From positions 1 through 38,980 of the IMG/VR virus record IMGVR_UViG_3300032265_001425: a DNA stretch of 38,980 nucleotides. One strand, written 5' to 3'. Of this stretch, positions 10,908-37,916 are shown piece after piece. Origin of the DNA: a virus. Position numbers and translations under genes: made by a program. Positions within the stretch are counted from its first letter, which is position 1. Every line of letters starts with the position of its first letter. Under the pieces are notes generated by a model, which searched no databases, was not told where the DNA came from, and saw only the letters and a list, made by a program, of their open reading frames with translations.

Positions 10908-11669
10908 TTAAATTAATATATCATTATTAATATTTCTTCCCATATAATTCCCCCATTTATATCTAAAATATTCATGACCTTTTTGTTCAGCTTGTTGTCT
11001 TTTTTCTCCATTAACTGAAACTGAAGCAAAATGATAAAAATGACTATTATATGTTCTTAACATTTTTAATCCTGATAATTTACATTTAAGAAAAAAATCA
11101 CAGTCAGCAACCATTCCTTGTTCATAATTTTCGTCCCAACCACCAACTTTAAGATAATCTATTTTAGACATAAAAATTGGAAGTGTTGAACCGGTTTCAT
11201 CAGGAAAAAGTCCTCGTAGTGGTTCTTCATATTTCCAGTAATTTTCTAAATTAAATGTTTTAGGATCACGTCCACAATCTCTAATATGAAATTGTTTAAA
11301 TATACTTGGTGTAGGTTCAATTTGATTTGGTGATATAACTGAATTAGAAATATAATCTTTTAATAATTCTATATCCCAATCTAATGGAAATACATTATCA
11401 TCATTTACTATTAAAATCTTATCATACTTTGCATTATATACACCTAAATTAGTTGCGCGGCATAATCCAACATTTTGTTCTAAATTTAAAATTTCAATAG
11501 ATTCCGCGTATTTTTCGAGTATTTCTTTATTAAGGTTATAAAAGCCATCTACAACAACTATAATTTGATTTTTATTTTGTTGTCCTTCAATTGCTGATTT
11601 AAGACATAGATCTAATGTATCAGGACTTTTATAAGTAGGTATAATAACGCTTACAGATGTTTTTTCCAT
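10908..11669 (-). CDS. Family 2 glycosyltransferase, 253 aa
   Basis: GT-A fold. VSVIIPTYKSPDTLDLCLKS at the start is the nucleotide-sugar binding strand and first helix of GT2 enzymes. IIVVVDGFYN replaces the usual VDD. KILIVNDDNVFPLDWD near residues 86-101 is the DxD-type metal motif, and GGWDENYEQGMVADCDFFLK is the acceptor-side block with an ED-like acid. It transfers a sugar from a nucleotide donor; donor and acceptor are unknown. It is the last gene of the sugar island and overlaps the upstream gene by 19 nt. Confidence 0.88.
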   Translation of the reverse strand: MEKTSVSVIIPTYKSPDTLDLCLKSAIEGQQNKNQIIVVVDGFYNLNKEILEKYAESIEILNLEQNVGLCRATNLGVYNAKYDKILIVNDDNVFPLDWDIELLKDYISNSVISPNQIEPTPSIFKQFHIRDCGRDPKTFNLENYWKYEEPLRGLFPDETGSTLPIFMSKIDYLKVGGWDENYEQGMVADCDFFLKCKLSGLKMLRTYNSHFYHFASVSVNGEKRQQAEQKGHEYFRYKWGNYMGRNINNDILI

Positions 11670-12373
11670 TCTTCAACTAAATTTTCTTGTTTTACTTTAT
11701 ATAATGGAGCTAACCACATTGTTTCTCCATGAGTACTGAATGTATTTAAAGGACATAATAATGCTTTTCCATTATCTCTTAATTCAAGAAACATTGGGAA
11801 ATCATTTGGGTGAGTTCCATTTGTGTGTTTTCTTAAGATATACTCATCTTCCTTTAATGTTTTTACTTTAGCAGCAAATGTCATAGTTGTACTGTTAAAC
11901 ATTCCAAATAATTCAGTTTCACCTCTAAATATTTTAGTTGGATAGCCTCCATCTTGATCTACTTCTGGATTTCCACCTTGAAATGGAGCTATAAATTTAT
12001 CAGGATGTAGATATAAAGTTACATATGGTGCTCCTAATTTAAATCCTTCTTCTAATATTTGAGGAGAATTAGGTAAGTGAAGATAATCATTTTCTACAAA
12101 ATAAACTATTTCATCATCTTCCCATTTTAGAGCCATATCTAAGGCTAAATTAAATGTTCCTGCTCCATGACCTATAGATACAGTTGTTATTTTATTAGGA
12201 TGACAATACTTAGTAATCATTTGTAATGTTTCTTTACTACAATTATCTGCTATTATTTCAAGATTTTGATTACCAAATACATTAACAAAATTTTTTAAAC
12301 AATTTTCATTGTTTATATAGTCTGGTTTTACTTTAGAGTAACCAGCGTCTGAGATTCTATAAATTATTTTCAT
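11651..12373 (-). CDS. Glycosyltransferase-like protein (GT-A type), 240 aa
   Basis: MKIIYRISDAGYSKVKPDY opens the protein. FNLALDMALKW and VYFVENDYLHLPNSP (about residues 89-103) read like the GT-A region around the DxD motif, here ENDY. LELRDNGKALLCPLNTFSTH follows near the C-terminus. I recall related phage proteins annotated only as glycosyltransferase family. Its start shares 4 nt with the stop of the upstream methyltransferase, so it is co-translated within the island. The acceptor is unknown. Confidence 0.65.
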   Translation of the reverse strand: MKIIYRISDAGYSKVKPDYINNENCLKNFVNVFGNQNLEIIADNCSKETLQMITKYCHPNKITTVSIGHGAGTFNLALDMALKWEDDEIVYFVENDYLHLPNSPQILEEGFKLGAPYVTLYLHPDKFIAPFQGGNPEVDQDGGYPTKIFRGETELFGMFNSTTMTFAAKVKTLKEDEYILRKHTNGTHPNDFPMFLELRDNGKALLCPLNTFSTHGETMWLAPLYKVKQENLVEEWKKHL

Positions 12374-12924
12374 TTAGTTCTTTCTATAATTAATAATCCA
12401 TTATTATTTAAAAATTTTTCTTTTATTTTCCACTCAGTATTATTTTCTAAAAATTCATTAATAGCATAATTTATACCTTTATGTCCTTCAGTTTCTCCTC
12501 TTTCTCCCCAAGAAACAATGTCATGAAATCCAATATATTTTTTAACTTTATGAGAATGTAATTTTAATTCATCTCTTACTTGTTCATACACATGCCATGT
12601 ATCTAAAAATAAAAAATCAGTTTCTTCAATTTCAATTTTTAAAACATCAGCTTTAATAAATTCAAAATTTAAACCATATGATTCTGCTGTTTCATAGACA
12701 TTATTAATATTACCTCCCCAATTTGATGGATCTTCTAAATCATAACTTATTAATTTTTTAGGAGCTGCGGCTAAAAATGCCCATGTTGAATATATTCCTC
12801 TAACACCCATTTCTGTTATATGTTCACATTCTTGTCCATATTTTATTAATGTGGGGATATGTTCATTTATATCAGATGGGTTTTGATATAACTGATTTAC
12901 TAATTGTTCTAAATTATATATCAT
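12370..12924 (-). CDS. Class I SAM-dependent methyltransferase-like protein, 184 aa
   Basis: A Rossmann-type methyltransferase resembling the Methyltransf_24/cephalosporin-hydroxylase group. HITEMGVRGIYSTWAFL (about 35-51) is the SAM-binding motif I region. KLISYDLEDPSNW carries the acidic residue at the end of strand 2. FLFLDTWHVYEQVRDELKLH and KKYIGFHDIVSWGE follow, with the FLDxxH and HD residues typical of this group. It overlaps the next gene by 4 nt. Likely substrate is a sugar or sugar derivative, inferred from the neighbours. Confidence 0.75.
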   Translation of the reverse strand: MIYNLEQLVNQLYQNPSDINEHIPTLIKYGQECEHITEMGVRGIYSTWAFLAAAPKKLISYDLEDPSNWGGNINNVYETAESYGLNFEFIKADVLKIEIEETDFLFLDTWHVYEQVRDELKLHSHKVKKYIGFHDIVSWGERGETEGHKGINYAINEFLENNTEWKIKEKFLNNNGLLIIERTK

Positions 12925-12928
12925 ATTT

Positions 12929-13624
12929 TTAATTTTTGATTTTTATTGTTAACCCCCATATTATATTAGGAGTATATGAATTACAATATTGTTTATAGTA
13001 TTCAGAAGTATTTATTTCATTTGATGTTTCATACCATTCTAAAAAATTATGAGATAAATAAAAATTTTCATTATCTACTTTAAAGCCATTTTCATTAATT
13101 TTATTTTTAATTAGATTTTGTCTTTGTAAATCATAATATCTTAAAAATGGATAACCAGTATCTTGATAATTCATATAGGGACCTACAGGAAGTGTAATTA
13201 TTAATTTTGATTCTTTATTCTTTAGTAATCGACATGCTTTTAAAATTCCTTGAATATCATGATTCCATAAAATTAAATCCTCTAAATCACTATCTATATC
13301 ATATGCTTTACCTTCCCAAAATAATCCAAAATGTTCAAATACAGATATTGAAATAATATAATCATATTTCATTGATTCATCAAATTTAATGAAATCAATA
13401 GGAATGTGTTTCCAATTAGTGTTTTTTCTTAACCAAGAGTCAGGTAAAGATTCTAATATATCCGTTGTAGTGACATTTTTACATCCTTTTTCTAAAATAC
13501 TTTCACTTATACCCTCTGTTCCTCCTTTACATTCCCCTATAATCAGAATATCTTTATCTTTATCAGATATTTGGTTTAAAAAATAAGGTACTTCTACTAA
13601 TTTAGTTCCTTTTAAATCTATCAT
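12929..13624 (-). CDS. Class I SAM-dependent methyltransferase, 231 aa
   Basis: I use the ATG at 13624, which overlaps the upstream stop as ATGA; the frame extends 13 codons further upstream, but inside the neighbour. KDILIIGECKGGTEGISESI is a modified motif I, NVTTTDILES the strand-2 acid, and YDYIISISVFEHFG the motif IV/V region (SVFEH as in many methyltransferases). LLKNKESKLIITLPVGPY completes the fold. Substrate unknown; a glycan intermediate is inferred from the surrounding glycosyltransferases. Confidence 0.75.
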   Translation of the reverse strand: MIDLKGTKLVEVPYFLNQISDKDKDILIIGECKGGTEGISESILEKGCKNVTTTDILESLPDSWLRKNTNWKHIPIDFIKFDESMKYDYIISISVFEHFGLFWEGKAYDIDSDLEDLILWNHDIQGILKACRLLKNKESKLIITLPVGPYMNYQDTGYPFLRYYDLQRQNLIKNKINENGFKVDNENFYLSHNFLEWYETSNEINTSEYYKQYCNSYTPNIIWGLTIKIKN

Positions 13625-14421
13625 ATTTCTATTATTTGTTGTTCTGGGTATTGTAAATGGCAAATATTTCCTATCATTATATTTTTATGACTAGGATCAT
13701 GTATTTGGTAATTTTTAATTATTTCTAATAATATACTAAATTTTTCTTGAGAAATCAAATTAAATTTTAATAGATTATTTCTTTCAATAGTTTCTTTTAA
13801 TAAAAATTCACAACTTTTAAACCCATATTCCCAGGATTTTCCATTATAATCAGGTATATTTTGGGTTTTATTATATATTTCATCTATATGATTTTTATCA
13901 TTTAAATAATCTGTTTTAAAAACATTTATAAAATAAAAATTTGTTTGAGGATAAAAATATTCATTAGTTAAATATACTTTACTAGTAGTAACTTCATAAG
14001 GAGGAAAGAAAGCTCCATATCCTACACTAGTTGTATAATAAAAATCAGCTTCTTCTATTTCTTTATCAAGTATATTTTCTTGTAATATAATATCACTTGC
14101 TGATTTACATAGCCATTCTTCTTCTTTTAATTTACAATAATCAAATACTAAATCATCTAAATCAGCTGTTCCAAAATTATGTCCCCTGTTTATTTTAGAA
14201 TCTAAGAACACACAATCAGAAAAATACTTAATCCATAATTTTTTATTATTTTCAATTAAAAATAAATCAGAATAATTAGTTGCTACTACTATTTTTTTAA
14301 ATTCTTTTAAAACTGGTAAATTATAGAGAATATATTGTTCTAATATATTTAAATCATCTTGTGATGAAATATAACCTATAGTACCGTAAACTGATTTATT
14401 AATAAGCTGTTTTAAATTCAT
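13621..14421 (-). CDS. Putative glycosyltransferase-like protein, 266 aa
   Basis: The N-terminus (VYGTIGYISSQDDLNILEQY, then FKKIVVATNYSD) looks like the start of a GT-A domain, and EEEWLCKSASDIILQENIL could hold the metal-binding SD.I motif. RGHNFGTADLDDLVFDYC is a second conserved-looking block. No classical DxD is visible, so the call depends partly on context: it lies between two methyltransferases of the same operon and overlaps both. It may instead be an orphan sugar-processing protein. Confidence 0.5.
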   Translation of the reverse strand: MNLKQLINKSVYGTIGYISSQDDLNILEQYILYNLPVLKEFKKIVVATNYSDLFLIENNKKLWIKYFSDCVFLDSKINRGHNFGTADLDDLVFDYCKLKEEEWLCKSASDIILQENILDKEIEEADFYYTTSVGYGAFFPPYEVTTSKVYLTNEYFYPQTNFYFINVFKTDYLNDKNHIDEIYNKTQNIPDYNGKSWEYGFKSCEFLLKETIERNNLLKFNLISQEKFSILLEIIKNYQIHDPSHKNIMIGNICHLQYPEQQIIEI

Positions 14422-15049
14422 CCCAAGTAATTAAATTTAATAATTGTTTTCTATTTTTATCAAAATAATCCCAATTCCAAATATTACTTTGTAAAGTACA
14501 TTCTTTTTTTCCTACTTTAATTACGCCAACTCCAAAATCAGTATCTATAACACTACATTCCATATTTGGATAATGTACTTTAAAGTCAACAAATGCTTTC
14601 CAAGTATCACCATTCCATGCTATTGTTTCTCTTGGTATTAATTGAGCTTCATAACTAACTGGATTGCAGTCATGTAATACAATAAATCCACTTTTTACAA
14701 TATGATTAAGTGAATTTTTAATATCTTTTTCTACTTGATCAGCATGATGTAACCCATCAATGAATATGATATCATATTTAATTTCATCATGTCCTTTAAT
14801 AAGTTCAAAGAAATCATCCGATGTCATTGGATAATTTACTTCTGGTGGTGTATATCCTTCTACTCCTGGGTCTACTCCATCTTTATGTATGGCTTTTATT
14901 TCTCTAATATTTTCTCCTTTAAATACACCTATTTCAAGATAATTAATTAATTTATATTTTTCAATTAAATAATTAATTATATCATATCGTTTAATAGGAC
15001 TATTTAAGTTACGGATAACTTCAAATTCTTGTAAATTGTTTTTATACAT
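14399..15049 (-). CDS. SAM-dependent methyltransferase (Methyltransf_24 type), 216 aa
   Basis: INYLEIGVFKGENIREIKAI (about residues 34-53) is motif I. YDIIFIDGLHHADQVEKDIK (about 92-111) is the FIDGxH block that defines this methyltransferase group, and KSGFIVLHDCNPVSYEAQ follows. The fold is complete. Similar proteins occur in sugar and surface-polysaccharide clusters. It overlaps the upstream gene by 8 nt and the downstream gene by 23 nt. Confidence 0.82.
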   Translation of the reverse strand: MYKNNLQEFEVIRNLNSPIKRYDIINYLIEKYKLINYLEIGVFKGENIREIKAIHKDGVDPGVEGYTPPEVNYPMTSDDFFELIKGHDEIKYDIIFIDGLHHADQVEKDIKNSLNHIVKSGFIVLHDCNPVSYEAQLIPRETIAWNGDTWKAFVDFKVHYPNMECSVIDTDFGVGVIKVGKKECTLQSNIWNWDYFDKNRKQLLNLITWDEFKTAY

Positions 15050-15905
15050 AATTCAAAACGTGATTTGCTAACTGTTTAGTTGTTAATTTATTTTTAGTAT
15101 ATTCAAATAACTTATTTAGTATAATAAAATATTTTTGTTCTTCAAAGTTTTTTGCTAATTCTCTTGCTTCTAATAAAAGTTCTTTAGGTAAATTAGTTAA
15201 TATTTGTTTAGGACAATTTTCTAAATCTATAAAATATGGGATACAATTATTAGCTAATATTTCATAATGTCTCATGCAATCCCATCCTGCTTTTTTCATA
15301 GTCACACCAAAATATGATTTATTATAATCATTATAGTAATCTTGTTCTATATCAAATTTATATCCACCTTGTCCTGGAATTATAGAACCATATTCTTGTA
15401 TTTTATTTAATTTATTTAAAGTTATTTTACATTCAGGTATTGCAAAATGAATAGGAATACATTTATTTAATGTTAATTCTCTTTTAAAATATGGGTGAAC
15501 TGTACTTAAATTATGAATATCAACTGAATCACTTCCATCAATTAAAAATATTTTATTTGAAGGATATATTTTAGATACTATATCATAATAATCTAAACAT
15601 CTATTAACTGCTCCATAAATAATTAAATCAAAATATTTATCTTTAATTTTTTCTTCTATATTAGATCTATCAATATTGTTATTGTTGATAAGATAAGTAG
15701 ATGTAAATCCTTTACCCCATAAATGATGAATTGGAATTTTATTTTGATTTTCTTTATATAAATGTATTATAGGAGTACTATCTACTACTTCAATATTTTC
15801 TAATTCTGTTAAACCATGAAATAAAAGATCATTTAAATAATCATTTATAAACCCTCCACTAGCTTTAGCTATGTCAATATAATTAGTTATATATAATATT
15901 TTCAT
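15042..15905 (-). CDS. Putative GT-B glycosyltransferase, 287 aa
   Basis: It starts MKILYITNYIDIAKASGGFI, a Rossmann-type glycan-enzyme opening. The C-terminal half carries SYFGVTMKKAGWDCMRHYEI and LANNCIPYFIDLENCPKQIL. This resembles the donor-binding domain of GT-B/exostosin-like enzymes, where a conserved segment near RHYEILANN contacts the nucleotide sugar. It is shorter than standard two-domain GT-B enzymes. It overlaps both neighbours by 4-8 nt. Donor and acceptor unknown. Confidence 0.65.
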   Translation of the reverse strand: MKILYITNYIDIAKASGGFINDYLNDLLFHGLTELENIEVVDSTPIIHLYKENQNKIPIHHLWGKGFTSTYLINNNNIDRSNIEEKIKDKYFDLIIYGAVNRCLDYYDIVSKIYPSNKIFLIDGSDSVDIHNLSTVHPYFKRELTLNKCIPIHFAIPECKITLNKLNKIQEYGSIIPGQGGYKFDIEQDYYNDYNKSYFGVTMKKAGWDCMRHYEILANNCIPYFIDLENCPKQILTNLPKELLLEARELAKNFEEQKYFIILNKLFEYTKNKLTTKQLANHVLNYV

Positions 15906-16822
15906 ATTAAAAATACTTGGTTAAATTGTTTTATTACTTTTTCTGGAGTATATTCTTGGTAACAGTTCCATTCTTTTTCTTTTATATCTGATTTTTGAAT
16001 ATTAATTAGTATGTTATATAATGAATTATAATCATGGTAATATATTCCTTTATCTCTTAATATTTCTATATGATTACGTTCAGGTGAATTACTATATGTA
16101 ATTACAGGTTTATTTTTAGTTGAAAATTCAGCTATTGCTAAACCAAATGTTTCTCCTCTTTCACGAGCATGAATCATAATATCACATGTATTTATAAAAG
16201 CTACTTTTTGTTCTTGATCTGTTGTTCCTTCAATAAAAAATACATTCTCTAAATTACAAAATGGTTCTTGATTCATAAATAAAAATACTATATCATTTCG
16301 TTTATTAATTACATCTATTACAGCCTGTCGTGCAAATGGTATTTCAAAATTATTTCCTCCATAATATCCTATTACTAATTTATTTTTTATATTAAATGTA
16401 TTTTTATAATCTATATTACATTCAGGAATATTAACCATATGAGGAACAAATGGTAAATTTTTACCACAAGTATTAGCTAACCATTGTGAAATATAAGCAT
16501 AAATATCTCCATGTGGATCATAAGAAGGAAATACGGCATGTATTAAATTTTTAGATTCAGGATGAAGTACTCCATCATTATAACCATATTTTAAAACATG
16601 AAAATAATCTCCCTTTATTCGATAAACATCATTGATATTATCAACTATATGAGTTGTAAATCTATTTTTAAATTTATTTAAACTTTTTAATTCAGCTGTT
16701 TTAAGAGAAACTATTATTGATTTATTACATAATATTTTTTCATTATAATCAGCATAATCATAAGCTGCTATACTAGTACCTCTTTCATTTAAATTAGGAT
16801 CAAAAAATAAAACTGTTTTCAT
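15902..16822 (-). CDS. Family 4-like (GT-B) glycosyltransferase, 306 aa
   Basis: MKTVLFFDPNLNERGTSIAA begins an N-terminal acceptor domain with the Gly-Thr turn usual in GT4. LVIGYYGGNNFEIPFARQAV starts the donor domain. CDIMIHARERGETFGLAIAE (about residues 214-233) is the E-x7-E signature that binds the nucleotide sugar, and NKPVITYSNSPERNHIEIL follows. Length is slightly short for GT4. It overlaps the FkbM-type methyltransferase upstream by 4 nt. Confidence 0.82.
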   Translation of the reverse strand: MKTVLFFDPNLNERGTSIAAYDYADYNEKILCNKSIIVSLKTAELKSLNKFKNRFTTHIVDNINDVYRIKGDYFHVLKYGYNDGVLHPESKNLIHAVFPSYDPHGDIYAYISQWLANTCGKNLPFVPHMVNIPECNIDYKNTFNIKNKLVIGYYGGNNFEIPFARQAVIDVINKRNDIVFLFMNQEPFCNLENVFFIEGTTDQEQKVAFINTCDIMIHARERGETFGLAIAEFSTKNKPVITYSNSPERNHIEILRDKGIYYHDYNSLYNILINIQKSDIKEKEWNCYQEYTPEKVIKQFNQVFLI

Positions 16823-17418
16823 TTTTTTATAAATAAAATATCTTGTTGATGAACTGTAGGGTGATTATTTTCATCTAATATTTCTGTTTTTTTAAAACCA
16901 AAATTATCCATAAATTTTATTACTTCATTATACAACGGAGAATTTTCATTATATTGAGTTAATGATACTTCTAACAATATTCCTTGAGCTTTGCTACATA
17001 ATTGTGCTCCACCTAATATGATATCTAATTCTGATCCTTGTGTATCTATTTTTATAAGATCAAATTCTGATTCAGATTCAAATAAATCATCTAATTTAAT
17101 TCCTTTTTTATTTAAAATTTCTAAATTAGAATCAGAATAGTGTTCTGTTAATTCTTTATATATAGAATTTCCAGTATTAACTGGATTATTTTTAATAGAA
17201 TAAAATTTATAATCTGAATTATCTTTTGCTAATAATCCAATATAATATTGATTTGTTATTTGTTTAAGATACGATTCACATTCTTTTGAAGCTTCAACTG
17301 AAAATATATAACTATTTGGAAAATAATTTTTACATAACATATGAAATTGACCAACATTAGCTCCAATATCTAATATTCTATATGGATAGAAATAATTAGT
17401 TATTTTAGATAGATTCAT
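16819..17418 (-). CDS. FkbM-family methyltransferase, 199 aa
   Basis: YRILDIGANVGQFHMLCKNY (motif I), SYIFSVEASKECESYLKQI with the strand-2 Glu, and EFDLIKIDTQGSELDIILGG (the FkbM KxDxxGxE hallmark) are all present, followed by GILLEVSLTQYNENSPLY. Such enzymes O-methylate sugars or related hydroxyls using SAM. Length is usual for the domain. The gene overlaps the upstream glycosyltransferase by 14 nt, within the operon driven by the promoter at 18033-18065. Confidence 0.9.
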   Translation of the reverse strand: MNLSKITNYFYPYRILDIGANVGQFHMLCKNYFPNSYIFSVEASKECESYLKQITNQYYIGLLAKDNSDYKFYSIKNNPVNTGNSIYKELTEHYSDSNLEILNKKGIKLDDLFESESEFDLIKIDTQGSELDIILGGAQLCSKAQGILLEVSLTQYNENSPLYNEVIKFMDNFGFKKTEILDENNHPTVHQQDILFIKK

Positions 17419-18028
17419 ACAATTTATTTTGTTTTTCTTGTTTTTCTATTGTTTTTGGATGATATAAAGCCCATAATTCATCCATAGGTAAATGTGAATA
17501 ATTTTTAGTACCTTGAATTCGTTCATGTACTTTTCCTCCCCACTGTATATCAGATTTATTTTTATAGATACGCGATTGGTAATCAGGAAAATTAACCCAT
17601 CCTTTACCATCTACAACCCAACCCCATTGGGTAATATGAGCTTCAGTTATACCTTCAACTGTATTTACTCTTGGGACTATAAACATTTCAACTTGAGGAT
17701 TTTGTTCTAAAAGTAAATGTAAATGTTCAATTAAATATTCATTAGGAATTTCATCTGCGTCTATATTAAATAGATAATCTCCTGTACAAAATGAATTTAA
17801 AAGATTTTTCCATTTAGCAAAATGACCTTCGAATTCGGCTTTATACCATTTAAATTCACTATTTATAGAGTGTGCTCTAAGATATTCTTCTACTTCTCTA
17901 CTACCATTTTTACCATCAAATAAAATAATAATTTCATCTTCAGGTCTTTTTAGTTTTAAAAGTATTGAAACTAATCGTTGTATTTCTACTAATTCAGTAC
18001 AAACTGTAATTGCATAACTTATTTTCAT
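17405..18028 (-). CDS. Family 2-like glycosyltransferase, 207 aa
   Basis: ISYAITVCTELVEIQRLVSI is the GT-A opening, IIILFDGKNGSREVEEYL the donor strand, and GDYLFNIDADEIPNEYLI (about residues 86-103) the DADE metal motif seen in WaaE/KdtX-like GT2 enzymes. WGGKVHERI and LYHPKT near the end fit that group. It is first in the island operon: the ATG is 5 nt from the -7 box of its promoter, predicting a leaderless transcript. Confidence 0.85.
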   Translation of the reverse strand: MKISYAITVCTELVEIQRLVSILLKLKRPEDEIIILFDGKNGSREVEEYLRAHSINSEFKWYKAEFEGHFAKWKNLLNSFCTGDYLFNIDADEIPNEYLIEHLHLLLEQNPQVEMFIVPRVNTVEGITEAHITQWGWVVDGKGWVNFPDYQSRIYKNKSDIQWGGKVHERIQGTKNYSHLPMDELWALYHPKTIEKQEKQNKLYESI

Positions 18029-18032
18029 ATTA

Positions 18033-18065
18033 TAAAAATAATAAAGAATTTTTAAAAAGCCAAAT
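18033..18065 (-). promoter_or_regulatory. Phage promoter for the sugar-modification operon (leaderless)
   Basis: ATTTGGCTTTTT and TATTTTTA on the minus strand with a 20-nt spacer. The ATG of the first glycosyltransferase lies where transcription should begin. Ten overlapping genes down to 10908 follow without another promoter or terminator. Confidence 0.85.
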
Positions 18066-18066
18066 T

Positions 18067-18525
18067 TTATTCTGGAAGAAGTTCAGTATAACTTAACGCA
18101 TCCATAAATCCTTCTTTTCCAAATTTTTTCATACTAGTCATGTCCATACGATATGAATAATATTCATTTTTCTTTCCAGGTATTGGATATTTAATTTTTT
18201 CTTCTTCTTTAATAGATACAGCTTTTACTCCTACCCAATCCCAATTATTAATATTAGTACCTTGAATAAAAACCATTCCTTTATCAGGAACATTTATTAC
18301 ACTAGGCATCCATATTTTTCCATCTTTATCTGTATATGCTAAATCTTTATACAATTCAGGTAAAATTGAAATTTGTGCTTCATAAAATTCTTCACCTTCT
18401 TTCATAAGTGAATTACTCTGATATCCACATCCAAAACAAAAATAAGTTTTTACTTGTGGAGTTACTTCTTGTACATATGCGGCGTCACCACCGCATTTAT
18501 CACATGTTATTAAATTATCTGTCAT
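18067..18525 (-). CDS. Zinc-ribbon phage protein, 152 aa
   Basis: An N-terminal zinc ribbon uses two Cys pairs, CDKCGGD and CFGCGYQ (residues about 8-11 and 30-33). The rest is a beta-rich domain (KIWMPSVINVPDKGMVFIQG, then NNWDWVGVKAV) that I recall from other large phages without a known role. It lies between two groups of sugar genes, 6 nt after the 434-aa glycosyltransferase. A nucleic-acid or protein adaptor role is possible. Confidence 0.6.
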   Translation of the reverse strand: MTDNLITCDKCGGDAAYVQEVTPQVKTYFCFGCGYQSNSLMKEGEEFYEAQISILPELYKDLAYTDKDGKIWMPSVINVPDKGMVFIQGTNINNWDWVGVKAVSIKEEEKIKYPIPGKKNEYYSYRMDMTSMKKFGKEGFMDALSYTELLPE

Positions 18526-18531
18526 TTTTTA

Positions 18532-19836
18532 TTAATTTTGAGGTATAAGTTTACCTAATTTTGGTAATTCTATTTTACGGAGTTGAGGTAATTTTAATTC
18601 TACTGCTTTTGGAAATTCAGGAATATATTGTGTAAATAATGAATCTATTTTTTCTTTCATTTTGTCAAGACTAAATTCAGTTTTACTTTTATATGATTGA
18701 CGTTTAGCTCCATCTATATATTTTGGATAATTTTCAAATACATCTTTTAAATAATGCCCTACTTGACCTGTATCTACACTAAACCATTTACTTTCTTTTG
18801 GTAAAAATTGATTTTTAGTACTTGGATGTACTGGTGTTAATTGACCATCTAATAATAAACAAAATTCTTTAGATAAGAAATCAGTATGACCACTCCAATT
18901 ACTTGCAATTATTGGTTTTTTAACTAAACTAAATTCAAGTAATGGCCTACCAAAACCTTCACCTTTAGTTAAATTAACCATTGCTTTTACTTTTGAATGG
19001 TTATATAATTCATTTATTTCTGAATCTGTAAATTCACCATGTAATAAATAAACATTAGGTAAATCTACAGAGTTTACTGATTCTCTAATACGTCTAATTT
19101 TAAGTAAAATATTTTCTCTATCAAGATATGATGATCCTGCTCCTGATGTTTTTAGAATTAAAGCTGGTTTTTTAGATTTATTTTTAAATGTTTCATAAAA
19201 TGCTTTTACTAATAAACTAACATTTTTACGATCTTCTCCAAAATCTCCATCCATCCAATGACCTACAAATAAATAACAAAAATCTTCTTTAATATTTGAT
19301 AAATCAAATTCACTTTTTTCTTTAGGAAAATAAGTTTCTAATGAAGCACCTTCAAACATTACTTCAATTGGTTTTTGTACTTTTACAATACCTTCAACAA
19401 CTCCTTGTTGATTACGTTTTTCAAATACGCTATTTTCAAATACTGTTTTAGAATGATTAGAAGATACTAATGTTAAATCCATACGATTTATACCCTCAAT
19501 CCATTCAGGAACTGCTATATCGCTTTCAATACCAGCTGTTATTAAACAATTCCATTTACCCATAACTTGAACTTCATTAGGTACTGTTATCCAAATCATT
19601 ATTTCAGGTTGACTTGGTAATTGTGGAGTAGTTAACATGTATTCTTTTAAATACTCCCATTCTTTATTTTCAGAACAAAAACCTAGTGGTGTATCACCCC
19701 ATCTACAAGGTATGATTTTAATGTTCCATTCATCTTTTTTAAGATCAATAATTGCTTTAACTTTATCTCGAGCATTTGCTCCATATCCGCTGTATGTATC
19801 TACAGGAGCATAAATTACACATGTTGTTTTATTCAT
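18532..19836 (-). CDS. Family 4 glycosyltransferase, 434 aa
   Basis: TCVIYAPVDTYSGYGANARD opens the acceptor domain with the Gly-rich loop. NRMDLTLVSSNHSKTVFENS is the interdomain part. KVKAMVNLTKGEGFGRPLLE (about residues 281-300) is the EGFGxPxxE donor-binding signature, and KKPIIASNWSGHTDFL follows. This is a full two-domain GT-B enzyme. Its neighbour at 19849-21291 is of the same family and only 12 nt away, so the two may act in sequence. Donor and acceptor are unknown. Confidence 0.88.
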   Translation of the reverse strand: MNKTTCVIYAPVDTYSGYGANARDKVKAIIDLKKDEWNIKIIPCRWGDTPLGFCSENKEWEYLKEYMLTTPQLPSQPEIMIWITVPNEVQVMGKWNCLITAGIESDIAVPEWIEGINRMDLTLVSSNHSKTVFENSVFEKRNQQGVVEGIVKVQKPIEVMFEGASLETYFPKEKSEFDLSNIKEDFCYLFVGHWMDGDFGEDRKNVSLLVKAFYETFKNKSKKPALILKTSGAGSSYLDRENILLKIRRIRESVNSVDLPNVYLLHGEFTDSEINELYNHSKVKAMVNLTKGEGFGRPLLEFSLVKKPIIASNWSGHTDFLSKEFCLLLDGQLTPVHPSTKNQFLPKESKWFSVDTGQVGHYLKDVFENYPKYIDGAKRQSYKSKTEFSLDKMKEKIDSLFTQYIPEFPKAVELKLPQLRKIELPKLGKLIPQN

Positions 19837-19848
19837 ATAACTTTAATT

Positions 19849-21291
19849 TTAATATATCAATTTATGTTTTAATACTTTAGGTCCAAATTCATTAGCGTTG
19901 ATTAATTCAAATTTTTCTCTTGGTTTCCAAGTTTCAAATAATATATCAACATATTTTATAATTCTATTAGACATTTTTTCAGATGTAAACCCAGCTTCAT
20001 CTCCAATTGCCCATTCTCTACCTTTTAATCCTCTTGCTTTACGTTCATCTCTAGATAAAGAATATACTTCTTTAATTTGTTCAACTGCATCTTCTGCTGT
20101 ACATCTATCATCCCAAATATAAGGTGTTGGAACTGAACCTTGAATTGATCTGTTTGATGGATAAACTGGAAATGCCCACTCACCATGTTTTTTAACAGTT
20201 CCATTATGATTAGATGGAAATTCAGATGTAAAATCAATCCATTTTTTCTTTATATTAAAACGCATTTGATCTTGCATTCCACCTGTTACGTTAGCAATTA
20301 TTGGATTTCCAACTAACATAGCTTCAGTTATACTTAACCCCCACCCTTCATTTGATGTTAATAAGATTTGAGCATCTGTTGAATTATACATTAAATTTAA
20401 TGTATTTGGATCTAATCTATCTGTTGAAAATAAAACATTATTTGGATAATGTTCAAATAAATATTCTTTTACTGTTATTAAATCAGTACCATGTTCACTT
20501 ACTAATTCAGTATGTAATAATATAGCGCATTTTTCCGCTTTTTCTTTAGGTAAAGAATCTAAAAATAATTTAAAAGCTAATAACGTATCAGGTATTTGTT
20601 TTCTTCTAATATTTCTTGAATTAAAAAATAAAACAAAATCATACTCTTTACCTTTAAATAATTGTTTTTTATAATTTACTAAATCTTGATATTTTGGATG
20701 ATCTTTATCAATTGGGAAAAATATATTTTCATTTAAACCATGTGGTACATATTCTATAATTTTATTTTTAGCTTTATCACCTAAAACAATTTTATTAATA
20801 TTTACTGTTTGTTTTGAAATGCCCAATAAAGCATCACATGATTCATAATATGCTTGATTATACTGAGGAGCTGGATAGTCATCCCATATATTCAAATATA
20901 TAATTGGTATTTTCTTTCTAATTTCGTTTTCGATACTAAAAAGCCAAGTAAAATATCTTGGATCTGTAATTAAAAATACAGCATCAGGTTTTTCTAGATC
21001 TATTAAATTTCTAATTAGCATAGAATCTCCATAACCATCTACTGGATATAATATCACTGATGAATCTTCTATTTCTGCATTTTTATTAGTGTCTGCTGAT
21101 AAATCTAATCTTTTACCTTTTTCAGGATGTGTTATACTACCCGCAACATTTACCCAATTAAAGTGATGTGCTGTGTTAATAACCATTTCTCTTGCTACAG
21201 TTGCTACTCCAGATGTTACTCTTATATCGTCAGATATCAAAAGTATTTTCTTACGTTGTTCTTTAGGAACAAGTTTAAATTTTTTATTCAT
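19849..21291 (-). CDS. Family 4 glycosyltransferase, 480 aa
   Basis: KKILLISDDIRVTSGVATVA has the GT4 N-terminal loop (SGVATV). YESCDALLGISKQTVNINKI marks the domain junction, FVLFFNSRNIRRKQIPDTLL starts the donor domain, and LLTSNEGWGLSITEAMLVGN (about residues 314-333) is the EGWGLxxxE signature. The length of 480 aa is normal to long for the family. The start is preceded by AAAATAAAAGTTATA. It is the first large gene of its group; its promoter is not obvious and it may depend on transcripts from the replication genes. Confidence 0.88.
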   Translation of the reverse strand: MNKKFKLVPKEQRKKILLISDDIRVTSGVATVAREMVINTAHHFNWVNVAGSITHPEKGKRLDLSADTNKNAEIEDSSVILYPVDGYGDSMLIRNLIDLEKPDAVFLITDPRYFTWLFSIENEIRKKIPIIYLNIWDDYPAPQYNQAYYESCDALLGISKQTVNINKIVLGDKAKNKIIEYVPHGLNENIFFPIDKDHPKYQDLVNYKKQLFKGKEYDFVLFFNSRNIRRKQIPDTLLAFKLFLDSLPKEKAEKCAILLHTELVSEHGTDLITVKEYLFEHYPNNVLFSTDRLDPNTLNLMYNSTDAQILLTSNEGWGLSITEAMLVGNPIIANVTGGMQDQMRFNIKKKWIDFTSEFPSNHNGTVKKHGEWAFPVYPSNRSIQGSVPTPYIWDDRCTAEDAVEQIKEVYSLSRDERKARGLKGREWAIGDEAGFTSEKMSNRIIKYVDILFETWKPREKFELINANEFGPKVLKHKLIY

Positions 21292-24433: not shown

Positions 24434-26068
24434 TTACATCATCATCATTGATGGATCAAATTGATTTTCTTTTTTATTTTTATCAATAGCATCTATAATT
24501 ACTGTTTCAGTTAATAAAACAGTTCCTGCTACTGATGCTGCGTTTTGAATAGCATTACGTGTTACTTTAGTTGGATCTAAAATACCTGCTTCTTTCATAT
24601 CAACAAATTTTTCATTTTTCAAATCATACCCATTCCATAATTTCTTTTCATTTTTAAGTTTATTATTAATGTTTTGGATATATTCAAAATCATGACCTGC
24701 ATTTGTTAAAATTTTATTAAATGGAGCTGATAATGCTTTATAAACTATCATTTTACCAATTTCAAAACTATCAATAGTTCCTTTATTAGTAATAGCTTCT
24801 CTAGCATATAATAAAGCCACCCCACCACCAGGTACAATACCTTCTTCAATACTTGATTTAGCGGCGTTTAAAGCATCGTCAACACGATCTTTAGTTTCTT
24901 TCATTTCAATTTCAGAATTTCCACCTACGTGAATAATAGCTACTCCACCTGAGAATTTAGCTAAACGTTCTTGTAATTTTTCTGTTTCAAATGGTGTGTT
25001 TGATTTTTCAATTTGTGCTTCTAATTCTTCAATACGTTTTTTAATATCTTCTTCTTTACCTTTTCCATCAACAATAGTAGTTTGTTCTTTACTTACCGTA
25101 ACTACTCTAGCTTGTCCAAACCAATCCCAACTAAATTTATCAAGTTTCATTCCTTTATCTTTAGAAAAAACTTTACCACCAGTTGTGATAGCAATATCTT
25201 CAAGAACTAATTTACGTCTTTCACCAAAATCAGGTGCTTTAACAGCGCATACTTTTAAAATACCTCTTCCTTTATTTACAATAAGAGTTGCTAAAGCTTC
25301 GTTATCAATATCTTCTGCAATTATGAGTAATGATTTATTTTGAACTGAAACTGCTTCTAAAATAGGTAATAAATCTTTAGCTTGATTAAATGTAGCGTCT
25401 GCTATTAAAATTGCTGGATCTTCTAAAGTACATGTCATTGTATTATTATTAGTAACAAAATAATGTGATTTATAACCCTTATTAAATTGCATACCTTCTA
25501 CAGTTTCTAATTTAGTTTCTCCAGATTTAGATTCTTCTATATGAACTACACCATCTCTACCTACTTTACTTATTGCTGTAGCAACTAATTTACCTACTTC
25601 AGGATCGTTATTTGCAGATATAGTTGCAATTTGTTCAATTTGTTCTTCAGATGCAATTTCTTCTGAAATTTTTTCATATAAATTAGCTACAACTTCTTTA
25701 ACTGCTGAATCAATACCTTTTTTCATTTCAACAGCATTTACACCTTTATCAAGATATTGTATTCCACTATTAATTATAGCTTGAGCTAACAATGTCGATG
25801 TTGTTGTACCATCTCCAGCGTTATTAGCTGTTTTAATAGCTGCTTGTTTAATCATTTGGATTCCTAAATCTTCAATAGGATCTTCTACATTTGTAATTTG
25901 TTTTGCAACTGATACTCCATCTTTTGTTGAACGAACTTCTTCATTTTCAAAATAAATAACATTTCGACCATTAGGTCCTAATGTTGATGTTACAGCATCT
26001 GCTAACTTGTTAATTCCGTTTGATAATTTTTTTCTGGCTTCTAGCCCTAATTCAATTTTTTTGTTCAT
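24434..26068 (-). CDS. groEL: GroEL chaperonin (HSP60), 544 aa
   Basis: Full-length group I chaperonin. Equatorial ATP-binding residues lie in TSTLGPNGRNVIY and NNAGDGTTTSTLLAQAI (Asp near residue 87). The apical domain includes GMQFNKGYKSHYFVTNNNTM and AIIHVGGNSEIEMKETKDRV. EEGIVPGGGVALLYAR is the C-terminal equatorial block, and the tail ends DPSMMMM like bacterial GGM tails but without glycines. It forms a folding cage with GroES. It lies 5 nt after groES and is followed by a strong terminator. Complete groES-groEL pairs are rare in phages; the pair probably folds abundant virion proteins. Confidence 0.97.
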   Translation of the reverse strand: MNKKIELGLEARKKLSNGINKLADAVTSTLGPNGRNVIYFENEEVRSTKDGVSVAKQITNVEDPIEDLGIQMIKQAAIKTANNAGDGTTTSTLLAQAIINSGIQYLDKGVNAVEMKKGIDSAVKEVVANLYEKISEEIASEEQIEQIATISANNDPEVGKLVATAISKVGRDGVVHIEESKSGETKLETVEGMQFNKGYKSHYFVTNNNTMTCTLEDPAILIADATFNQAKDLLPILEAVSVQNKSLLIIAEDIDNEALATLIVNKGRGILKVCAVKAPDFGERRKLVLEDIAITTGGKVFSKDKGMKLDKFSWDWFGQARVVTVSKEQTTIVDGKGKEEDIKKRIEELEAQIEKSNTPFETEKLQERLAKFSGGVAIIHVGGNSEIEMKETKDRVDDALNAAKSSIEEGIVPGGGVALLYAREAITNKGTIDSFEIGKMIVYKALSAPFNKILTNAGHDFEYIQNINNKLKNEKKLWNGYDLKNEKFVDMKEAGILDPTKVTRNAIQNAASVAGTVLLTETVIIDAIDKNKKENQFDPSMMMM

Positions 26069-26073
26069 AAATT

Positions 26074-26379
26074 TTATTTGTTTGTTTCTTCAATAATAGC
26101 ACATACTAAATTTTCAGCACATGTGTAATATTCTTCATTTTCGAAGTATATTTTGGTAGGCCCTTGTGGTGGTAATATCACAATATCATCTTGTTTTACA
26201 GTTGTAGGAATAAATGTTCCAGTTACACTATAATGTCCTGGTCCTACAGTTATTACTTTACATACTAATGATTTTTCTTTTCCTAAATCTGGAACTATAA
26301 TATTTCCATATTTTTGTTCCTCTTCTTCTAAGGGCTTTACTACGATAGCATTAAATAATGCTTTGATTGTTTTTGACAT
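26074..26379 (-). CDS. groES: GroES co-chaperonin, 101 aa
   Basis: Beta-barrel lid of the GroEL cage. ALFNAIVVKPLEEEEQKYGN is the N-terminal strand leading into the mobile loop, here GNIIVPDLGKEKSLV. KVITVGPGHYSVTG and DDIVILPPQGPTKIYFENEE match the GroES core. Length is normal. The mobile loop has IIVPD in place of the usual GGIVLP-type sequence, which still gives a hydrophobic tripeptide for GroEL contact. It lies directly before groEL. Confidence 0.93.
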   Translation of the reverse strand: MSKTIKALFNAIVVKPLEEEEQKYGNIIVPDLGKEKSLVCKVITVGPGHYSVTGTFIPTTVKQDDIVILPPQGPTKIYFENEEYYTCAENLVCAIIEETNK

Positions 26380-36173: not shown

Positions 36174-36635
36174 TTATATTATGTTTTTTAATCCTTCAAT
36201 AACTTCCTTATTAAATTCTAAGGCAAAATCTCTTTCTATCATATTAATAAGTGCTTGTTCAGCATCTAATCCATTTTCGTTTGTCGCTAATTTAATACAT
36301 TCATCATCAGTCTTATTGTGCCAAAATGATAAGTGTCTTAATAAATCAATTTTAACATTCAAGGTATTTGATTTTTCTTTAAACAATTGAATTTCATTCC
36401 AAGTTGGTTTCATATCTTGAGGGAAGGATGGGTAGTGATATTCACTATTTTTAGAGTCTCTTAATGTTATTTCACCATTGATAAACTCATTAAATCCTTC
36501 CAAAGTTAAATCTGCTATAGATTGTTTATGTTGGTCATAAATTGTAAATCTATATTCAGACATAGAGTCCAAATAATATTTAGAGGCTTTTAAAATAGCA
36601 CCTTCCGAATTAAGTAAAGTTAAAGTATTTTTCAT
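36174..36635 (-). CDS. Hypothetical protein, 153 aa
   Basis: MKNTLTLLNSEGAILKASKY opens a mixed alpha/beta protein with a helical C-terminus (AEQALINMIERDFALEFNKE). No domain recognised. It follows the tmRNA gene by 20 nt and is probably expressed from the smpB-ssrA transcript, with no promoter element of the family between them. Confidence 0.55.
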   Translation of the reverse strand: MKNTLTLLNSEGAILKASKYYLDSMSEYRFTIYDQHKQSIADLTLEGFNEFINGEITLRDSKNSEYHYPSFPQDMKPTWNEIQLFKEKSNTLNVKIDLLRHLSFWHNKTDDECIKLATNENGLDAEQALINMIERDFALEFNKEVIEGLKNII

Positions 36636-36655
36636 AATTCATAACTAATTTTTAG

Positions 36656-37058
36656 TGGAGCTGGAGGGAATCGAACCCTCGTGTAAACAACTAATCCAAT
36701 AAATTCATTCACAGGTTTAGTTAATTTTTCTAAATTAACAAAATATTTGGTTTGATATATGTGAGAAACCTACCAACAAATAACTTGGTCTTGGAATTAT
36801 TTTACTGGAGCTCCAACCTGCGACTCCTTAAGACACTTCTGTTCCTAGGTTACATGTGTTCCGACCCGACAAAGATTAGGCAGCTACTGCCATTTCTTCA
36901 TTGCTTACGAGAGCCATTACGTCCTCGAAAGTCATTGTAGACAATTCTACAACATTATTTGCATTTAATTGCTACTTAGGATATTAAAGTGCTTCCAAAG
37001 CTAGCACTACCTGTATCACTTATTAAACTACATTATTTATCAAATCCAATGCAGCCCC
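36656..37058 (-). ncRNA. ssrA: Transfer-messenger RNA (tmRNA)
   Basis: Rescues stalled ribosomes with SmpB. The ends form the tRNA-like domain: 5' GGGGCTG pairs with 3' CAGCTCC, discriminator A, T arm GAGGG-TTCGATT-CCCTC. No CCA is encoded. The length of about 403 nt is typical. The mRNA-like part has a frame ending ...NEEMAVAA-TAA (stop at 36876-36878), similar to ALAA-type degradation tags; the last ten codons VSNEEMAVAA align with ANDENYALAA. A 7-bp hairpin (36935-36952) precedes the tag region. The resume codon cannot be fixed by eye. The 5' end lies 1 nt after the smpB stop, so 5' processing by RNase P is needed. Confidence 0.93.
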
Positions 37059-37490
37059 TTATTTTTGTTTTAATTCTCTTTGTGTTTCTAATTTAATATC
37101 TTTTTCACGAATTGAATTCTTTTTATCATAAAGTTTTTTACCTCGTGCAACACCTAATTTTACTTTAAATTTATTATTTAGTATAAATATTTCTAATGGT
37201 ATTATAGTATTACCTTTAATTTTTATTTGTTCTTCAATTATTTTAATTTCTTTTTTCTTTAAAAGCAACTTTCGTTCACGAAGTTCTTCATGATTATTAA
37301 TTGAAGCATTTTTAAATTTAGAAATAAACATATTTTTAATAAATATTTCATTATCTACTATATGAGCATAGCTATCTTTAATATTAGCTTCACCTGCTCG
37401 AAGTGATTTAACTTCTGAACCTAGAAGACTAATACCTGCTGTATATTCTTTTAGTATAAAATATTCAAAATATGCTTTTCTATTAATCAT
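37059..37490 (-). CDS. smpB: SsrA-binding protein SmpB, 143 aa
   Basis: RNA-binding OB-fold partner of tmRNA. NRKAYFEYFILKEYTAGISL starts the domain, LLGSEVKSLRAGEANIKDSY is the signature, RERKLLLKKKEI and NTIIPLEIFI follow, and VARGKKLYDKKNSIREKDIK is the C-terminal tail that enters the ribosomal mRNA channel. All family blocks are present and length is normal. It overlaps the upstream gene by 8 nt and its stop directly abuts ssrA. Confidence 0.95.
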   Translation of the reverse strand: MINRKAYFEYFILKEYTAGISLLGSEVKSLRAGEANIKDSYAHIVDNEIFIKNMFISKFKNASINNHEELRERKLLLKKKEIKIIEEQIKIKGNTIIPLEIFILNNKFKVKLGVARGKKLYDKKNSIREKDIKLETQRELKQK

Positions 37491-37707
37491 TAGAATATAA
37501 TTCTTCTGTTGTTAGCAAATATAAAACTTCTTTTAAATGTTTAAAATTAGTACACTTACAAACTAATTCAGGTTCTCCAAAACCATCGTTAATAGTATAC
37601 AAATCTTGTGTTTTGATATTAAATTCAAAATCCCAATTTCCTCCATAATATGAAGTATTATCATCTGAAAAGAAACTGATACTGTTAAGTTGATCTTTAG
37701 TTATCAT
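37483..37707 (-). CDS. Hypothetical protein, 74 aa
   Basis: Small acidic protein, MITKDQLNSISFFSDDNTSY then NWDFEFNIKTQDLYTINDGF. No domain recognised. It overlaps smpB by 8 nt and the upstream membrane-protein gene by 4 nt. Confidence 0.6.
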   Translation of the reverse strand: MITKDQLNSISFFSDDNTSYYGGNWDFEFNIKTQDLYTINDGFGEPELVCKCTNFKHLKEVLYLLTTEELYSND

Positions 37708-37916
37708 TTATCTTTAAATTTATAAATCCACACTGTATCTACTTTTTGGTTATTAGCTTTTAATTCCCAAGTTATCTCAGGTTTAGTTTGTGTTTTAATT
37801 GTGTTTTCTTTTACTTGATTTTTAATAAAATATCCTAAACTTAACATAGCTAATGCGAATAGTATTACTATTAATACTATTGCTGCTTTAAATATATCTG
37901 CTAATGCGTTTCCCAT
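37704..37916 (-). CDS. Small single-span membrane protein, 70 aa
   Basis: One hydrophobic helix near residues 8-30 (FKAAIVLIVILFALAMLSLG) with a polar C-terminal domain (KPEITWELKANNQKVDTVW). Topology would fit a spanin-like or accessory membrane protein; there is no lipobox. Overlaps the next gene by 4 nt. Confidence 0.6.
   Translation of the reverse strand: MGNALADIFKAAIVLIVILFALAMLSLGYFIKNQVKENTIKTQTKPEITWELKANNQKVDTVWIYKFKDK

Follow-up and report, generated by a model that had tools for sequence, protein, structure and literature searches.

A phage genome fragment in which a gene for SmpB runs up to a gene for tmRNA without an intervening base raises the question of whether both genes are intact, from which lineage they derive and what the pair would do for the phage; SmpB and tmRNA are the two halves of the bacterial system for rescue of stalled ribosomes. 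The window (the whole 38,980-base stretch analysed here) is a phage fragment related to large Flavobacterium-type phages, and carries 18 tRNAs, GroES/GroEL and thymidylate synthase genes and, judged by eye from translations, family B polymerase, clamp loader and FolE/QueD-like genes. IMG/VR contains 71 relatives of its polymerase, with 64-71% identity, on contigs of up to 175 kb. We infer a member of the Bacteroidota as host because Flavobacterium phage immuto gave a short thymidylate synthase match and has several genes in common with the record, although immuto is annotated with a family A rather than a family B polymerase. The GroES-GroEL pair (24434-26379) has the same gene order in immuto, and numerous glycosyltransferase- and methyltransferase-like ORFs, recognised by eye from translations, form a block at 10908-21291. 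On the minus strand the gene order is a 70-aa ORF (37704-37916), a 74-aa ORF (37483-37707), smpB, ssrA and a 153-aa ORF (36174-36635) beginning approximately 20 bases past the tmRNA, with no Pfam or PHROG match for either the 74-aa or the 153-aa ORF. A prophage edge at an ssrA attachment site was considered and found to be unsupported, the tmRNA being whole and its neighbours lytic-type replication genes; no integrase was noticed by eye among the subset of window ORFs searched. The smpB genes in Staphylococcus, Listeria, Escherichia and Klebsiella phage records represent, on our reading, prophage edges at such a site.

The initial annotation had proposed a complete SmpB and a complete tmRNA, and both were borne out. 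The smpB gene (37059-37490, minus strand) encodes a full-length protein of 143 aa with a basic C-terminal tail (GKKLYDKKNSIREKDIKLETQRELKQK). It matches PF01668 end to end with 170.5 bits (curated cut-off 27; profile 4-143/143), residues 3-143 align to the Aquifex-type SmpB 1p6v with the C-terminal tail included (E 2.5e-34), and all 20 invariant family columns of alignment A1 are kept. The ssrA gene encodes a one-piece tmRNA of approximately 404 nt when mature, located on the minus strand at 36653-37058 by cmscan and 36655-37058 by ARAGORN. The cmscan hit to RF00023 (37058-36653) scored 79.4 bits (E 2.2e-29) over the whole model (1-374), above the gathering threshold of 47, and ARAGORN called the tmRNA independently with the tag ANNVVELSTMTFEDVMALVSNEEMAVAA. 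The acceptor stem is formed by GGGGCUG (37052-37058), adjoining the smpB stop codon, and CAGCUCC (36657-36663), with 7/7 pairs and the G3-U70 alanine identity signal present. A discriminator A at 36656 is followed by CUA; absence of an encoded CCA, which must therefore be added, is usual among relatives with placed stems. The acceptor ends also pair in relatives, with a G-U at pair 3 in all 46 placed stems (the window and 45 more) and differing outer letters; stem placing required 7/7 pairing, so that the informative part is the covariation and the constant G-U. In an alignment of seven close relatives of the same tag family, compensatory changes were present at 28/56 predicted pairs, located in H2, the tag hairpin, the PK-region stems and the T arm. 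The tag frame is open from an alanine resume codon (GCA) to GCC UAA, giving the small hydrophobic C-terminus AVAA. The central PK2-PK4 region fits RF00023 poorly, in a low-confidence alignment with many unpaired positions, and the PK1-PK4 layout is predicted only. A chance tmRNA-like fold was ruled out by the RF00023 score, the ARAGORN call, the acceptor stems and the covariation.

Two variant forms were observed among other phage tmRNAs. At 16 loci (including L219, L233, L236, L246, L253, L268, L290 and L411) a T-arm loop GGCAGTA replaces TTCGANN, and the stems enclosing this loop covary (CGATG/CATCG, CGTTG/CAACG, CCGGG/CCCGG); inspected by eye, the L411 molecule (record G078) retains G3-U70 and has the tag GKTNEVASREDLVAALQNNMLKVEELAVV. 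ARAGORN called permuted, two-piece tmRNAs with tags of 13-17 aa at L413, L414, L419 and L420, these being crAss-like phages cr125_1, cr272_1 and cr50_1 together with Chryseobacterium phage MA9V-3.

The pair as first delimited extends from the discriminator base (36656) to the first base of the smpB start codon (37490), and it was claimed that the tmRNA begins at the base next to the smpB stop. The junction sequence confirms this, ...ACAAAAATAA being followed immediately by GGGGCTGCA..., with G1 of the tmRNA directly after the UAA (37061-37059). At its other end, the smpB start overlaps the upstream 74-aa ORF by 8 bp (37483-37490). A consensus scan for the Bacteroidetes-type promoter TAnnTTTG with an upstream TTTG detected none between smpB and ssrA. 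Co-transcription of the two genes is likely because they are on the same strand and abut, and smpB overlaps the ORF before it; the earlier proposal of a single transcript is consistent with this layout, and exact 5' processing would be needed. The abutting smpB-then-ssrA layout was present in 0/16 other phage records with both genes and is thus not essential to function. A pattern search of viral contigs for a stop codon abutting a tmRNA (TARGGGGNTG...) produced nine matches, three of them called tmRNAs and none with SmpB.

The tag reading frame (36876-36962, minus strand; positions 97-183 of the ARAGORN gene) encodes 28 aa followed by UAA, and homologous tags are found in phages. It is one of a family of phage tags, 22-28 aa in length, that have in common the conserved core TFEDAMSFV, which in the window reads TFEDVMALV (36906-36932, minus strand). 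A viral scan for the segment CTAARCCTGTGAATGA recovered at least 120 stretches, of which about 95 are tmRNA-like; being drawn by motif, this sample is biased towards the lineage of the window's tmRNA. Among the matches listed, many tags are long and fall into subfamilies, namely (a) ANVELSTMTFEDAMSFVGVDLAVAA and kin, the window included, (b) GKTNVWDAINxFGAPVxxVEYAVAA, (c) GKTINSEDMMSIPTSIT...ELALAA and (d) GENPFFALAGLGSVESVEVALAA, whilst others are short (ANNNNHFEYALAA). The viral record G077 also carries a homologous long tag of subfamily (a). Across nine distinct sequences of this subfamily, the nine core codons differ 48, 8 and 121 times at positions 1, 2 and 3, respectively, counted pairwise with kinship ignored; at the codon level, 104 differences are synonymous and 56 non-synonymous. 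The core is located in a hairpin, so that RNA structure accounts for some of its conservation, and only the third-position excess separates the two; the codons change mostly at third positions, a coding signature that places the core peptide itself under selection beyond the hairpin in the same place. All 29 ARAGORN-readable Bacteroidota tags are of 9-10 aa, and the commonest tag length in the tmRNA database is 10 aa (PMC11915505). The AATGA form of the segment was absent from 148 Bacteroidota genomes, in which a looser pattern gave 12 scattered matches, none of them AATGA. A tblastn search of the phage collection with the 28-aa tag gave no match, the peptide probably being too short, and no published account of long conserved phage tags was found among open-access papers. 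At the C-terminus, AVAA is similar to the usual degron, and Clp-type proteases should still read it. A second, low-scoring tmRNA in one Bacteroidota genome (G213) was considered as a phage copy and rejected, as it has the host tag GENNYALAA and looks degenerate.

In Bacteroidota, the presumed host group, a tmRNA over the cut-off was detected in 114/118 genomes and SmpB in all 41 genomes searched for it. The smpB gene adjoined ssrA in 0/40 genomes with both genes, and by our own reading of coordinates in these 40 the nearest pair on one contig is approximately 70 kb apart. A 106-row tree places the window SmpB in an all-viral clade of 20 rows (SH-aLRT 88), its nearest neighbours being L116-L118 with identity of up to 61%; SmpB is short (143 columns) and the deep forks are therefore weak. 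Recent capture of SmpB from a host is unlikely because the protein sits in a phage-only branch, and capture of a linked block was rejected, the genes being unlinked in the 40 Bacteroidota genomes and SmpB grouping with phages. Other members of the same clade have related tmRNAs at a distance from smpB: homologous molecules 63 kb away in G060 (tag ANVELSTWTIEDALAFVDGEFALAA) and 5 kb away in G077 (tag AKVELSTWTVEDALAFVDGEYAVAA), whilst in G069 and G072 segments resembling a tmRNA 3' end are located at contig ends, 6-7 kb from smpB.

It had been supposed that phages with a tmRNA are few and those with both partners fewer. Neither statement holds well: one study counts tmRNA in 402/18,146 phage genomes (PMC9004378), which is not very rare, and the second is out of date, with tmRNAs and SmpB on record in huge phages (PMC7162821) and both genes present in 16 other phage records here. 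SmpB-bearing viral records with a tmRNA are G004, G007, G060, G082, G087, G092, G097, G098, G099 and G101, the tmRNAs of G082 and G097 scoring just under the Rfam cut-off; motif searching added G069, G072, G077 and G078, and the published huge phages Lak-B5 and LR756504 were confirmed to have both genes. The separation is 457 bp in G099 and 480 bp in G097, in convergent orientation, 863 bp in G087, where the tmRNA is upstream, 1.5 kb in G101, 5-7 kb in G077, G069 and G072, and 26-300 kb in the remaining records. Same-strand adjacency, for which a survey of phage genomes had been suggested, is consequently not conserved (0/16). No SmpB was found in the tmRNA-motif stretches among the at least 120 matches listed, flanks of at least 600 bp on both sides being available for 66/96 tmRNA-like stretches among those matches. 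Linkage of smpB and ssrA is thus unusual in phages, whilst their co-occurrence is recurrent. Among 50 records with a related DNA polymerase, many of them fragments, SmpB was found in none and tmRNA in one (G020), from which it follows that this phage group can do without the module.

Further features were observed near these genes in other records. Three SmpB-carrying phage records have GOLLD RNAs within approximately 1 kb of the tmRNA or of its 3' segment (L201, 127-534; L204, 103-510; L405, 323-746). By eye, smpB in the phage record L003 (1541-6412) has RNase R-like and sigma-factor-like ORFs close by on the same strand, the RNase R-like ORF being another trans-translation partner carried by a phage. 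At L004 and L005 (3519-5432) a 26-28-residue SmpB N-terminal fragment and an opposite-strand mobile-nuclease-like ORF precede a full smpB, an arrangement suggestive of an insertion at smpB that duplicated part of the gene.

The reading we consider very probable is that the pair would serve as a trans-translation module run by the phage, rescuing ribosomes and marking their products with a phage-specific tag. From the sequence we infer its expression, processing, rescue activity and a role for the core as follows. The operon would be transcribed through smpB into ssrA, RNase P would cut exactly after the smpB stop codon, and the tmRNA 3' end would be trimmed and CCA added. Host AlaRS would charge the tmRNA via G3-U70, and phage SmpB (or host SmpB) would bring it to ribosomes that have stalled at broken mRNAs, whether of the phage or of the host. 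Such a ribosome would then switch to the tag frame and end at UAA, the nascent chain gaining the 28-residue tag, in which the internal TFEDAMSFV-family core may act as a second, phage-specific signal beside the degron-like AVAA end; most probably, the core would bind a protease adaptor or another phage or host protein. Such a module still depends on the host for AlaRS, EF-Tu, RNase P, CCA-adding enzyme, protease and ribosomes, so the description of it in the initial annotation as self-contained is not upheld.

Other explanations were weighed against this one. Phage tmRNA and SmpB might instead compete with the host system as a decoy and block host quality control, as has been proposed for the tmRNA-like domain of mycobacteriophage DS6A, which encodes little beyond a tRNA-like domain, a similar molecule inhibiting tmRNA (PMC4131195); the window tag also differs from sampled bacterial tags. 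The whole molecule is kept, however, with resume codon, open tag frame, stop and selected tag, as is SmpB, and because a decoy needs none of these we regard this as highly improbable. Slightly less probable still is that smpB-ssrA was taken from a host chromosome as a passenger with no present role. Hardly any of the relatives that share the polymerase have the genes, yet the two are never adjacent in the 40 Bacteroidota genomes, SmpB groups with phages and away from sampled Bacteroidota, the tag is of phage type and both genes are intact, so that this reading is mostly refuted already. A further proposal would add to the phage-run module rather than replace it, and takes the abutting layout as a regulatory device holding SmpB down: maturation by RNase P would leave an smpB mRNA ending at UAA, which 3' nibbling would convert to a non-stop message, with SmpB itself being tagged. 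The zero-base junction fits such autoregulation, as does the Carsonella smpB coding sequence running into ssrA, which is expected to give a non-stop smpB mRNA (PMC4131195). Since no other phage record with both genes has this junction there is no evident long-term selection for it, and compactness alone explains the layout; we consider autoregulation unlikely.

Extended to the phage lineage, the phage-run module suggests, tentatively, that these phages run their own trans-translation with a rewritten 22-33-aa proteolysis tag bearing a selected internal motif (TFEDAMSFV, or VWDAINxFG or SEDMMSI in other subfamilies). Stalled products might thereby meet a phage-chosen fate, through an adaptor, protease or other partner, in addition to following the standard route of the host, and the junction seen here may also tune SmpB. 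Because the phage tag is conserved, long and distinct from the short ones of sampled bacteria, the question of why phages carry tmRNA becomes testable; the tag could be placed on reporters to fish out its binding partner, and the jointly encoded genes offer a compact two-part system for reconstitution.

Phage tmRNA and SmpB have already been reported together (PMC7162821) and tmRNA in hundreds of phage genomes (PMC9004378), and the pair therefore belongs to a known kind, what is distinctive being its layout and its long, selected tag. The huge phages (Al-Shayeb et al. 2020, PMC7162821) and Lak phages likewise encode both partners, although in Lak-B5 and LR756504 the genes are approximately 260-300 kb apart, whereas in the window, a 39-kb fragment with relatives among phages of approximately 160 kb, no base separates them. 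Bacterial smpB-ssrA pairs of the E. coli and Bacillota type have the same order and strand, with gaps from approximately 20 bp in bacterial-type contigs such as L164, L165 and L170; the window differs in its zero gap, its phage-lineage SmpB and its 28-aa tag (approximately 10 aa in bacteria). OM43 phage Melnitz, a T4-like phage, and pelagiphages also bear a complete ssrA, but the Melnitz tmRNA is two-piece and accompanied by a glutamine riboswitch, with no phage smpB reported alongside in the available text (PMC9004378), whereas that of the window is one-piece and found with smpB. A spacer is likewise missing in Carsonella, in which the smpB frame continues into an ssrA that is decaying, with SmpB truncated (PMC4131195), whilst in the window both genes are intact.
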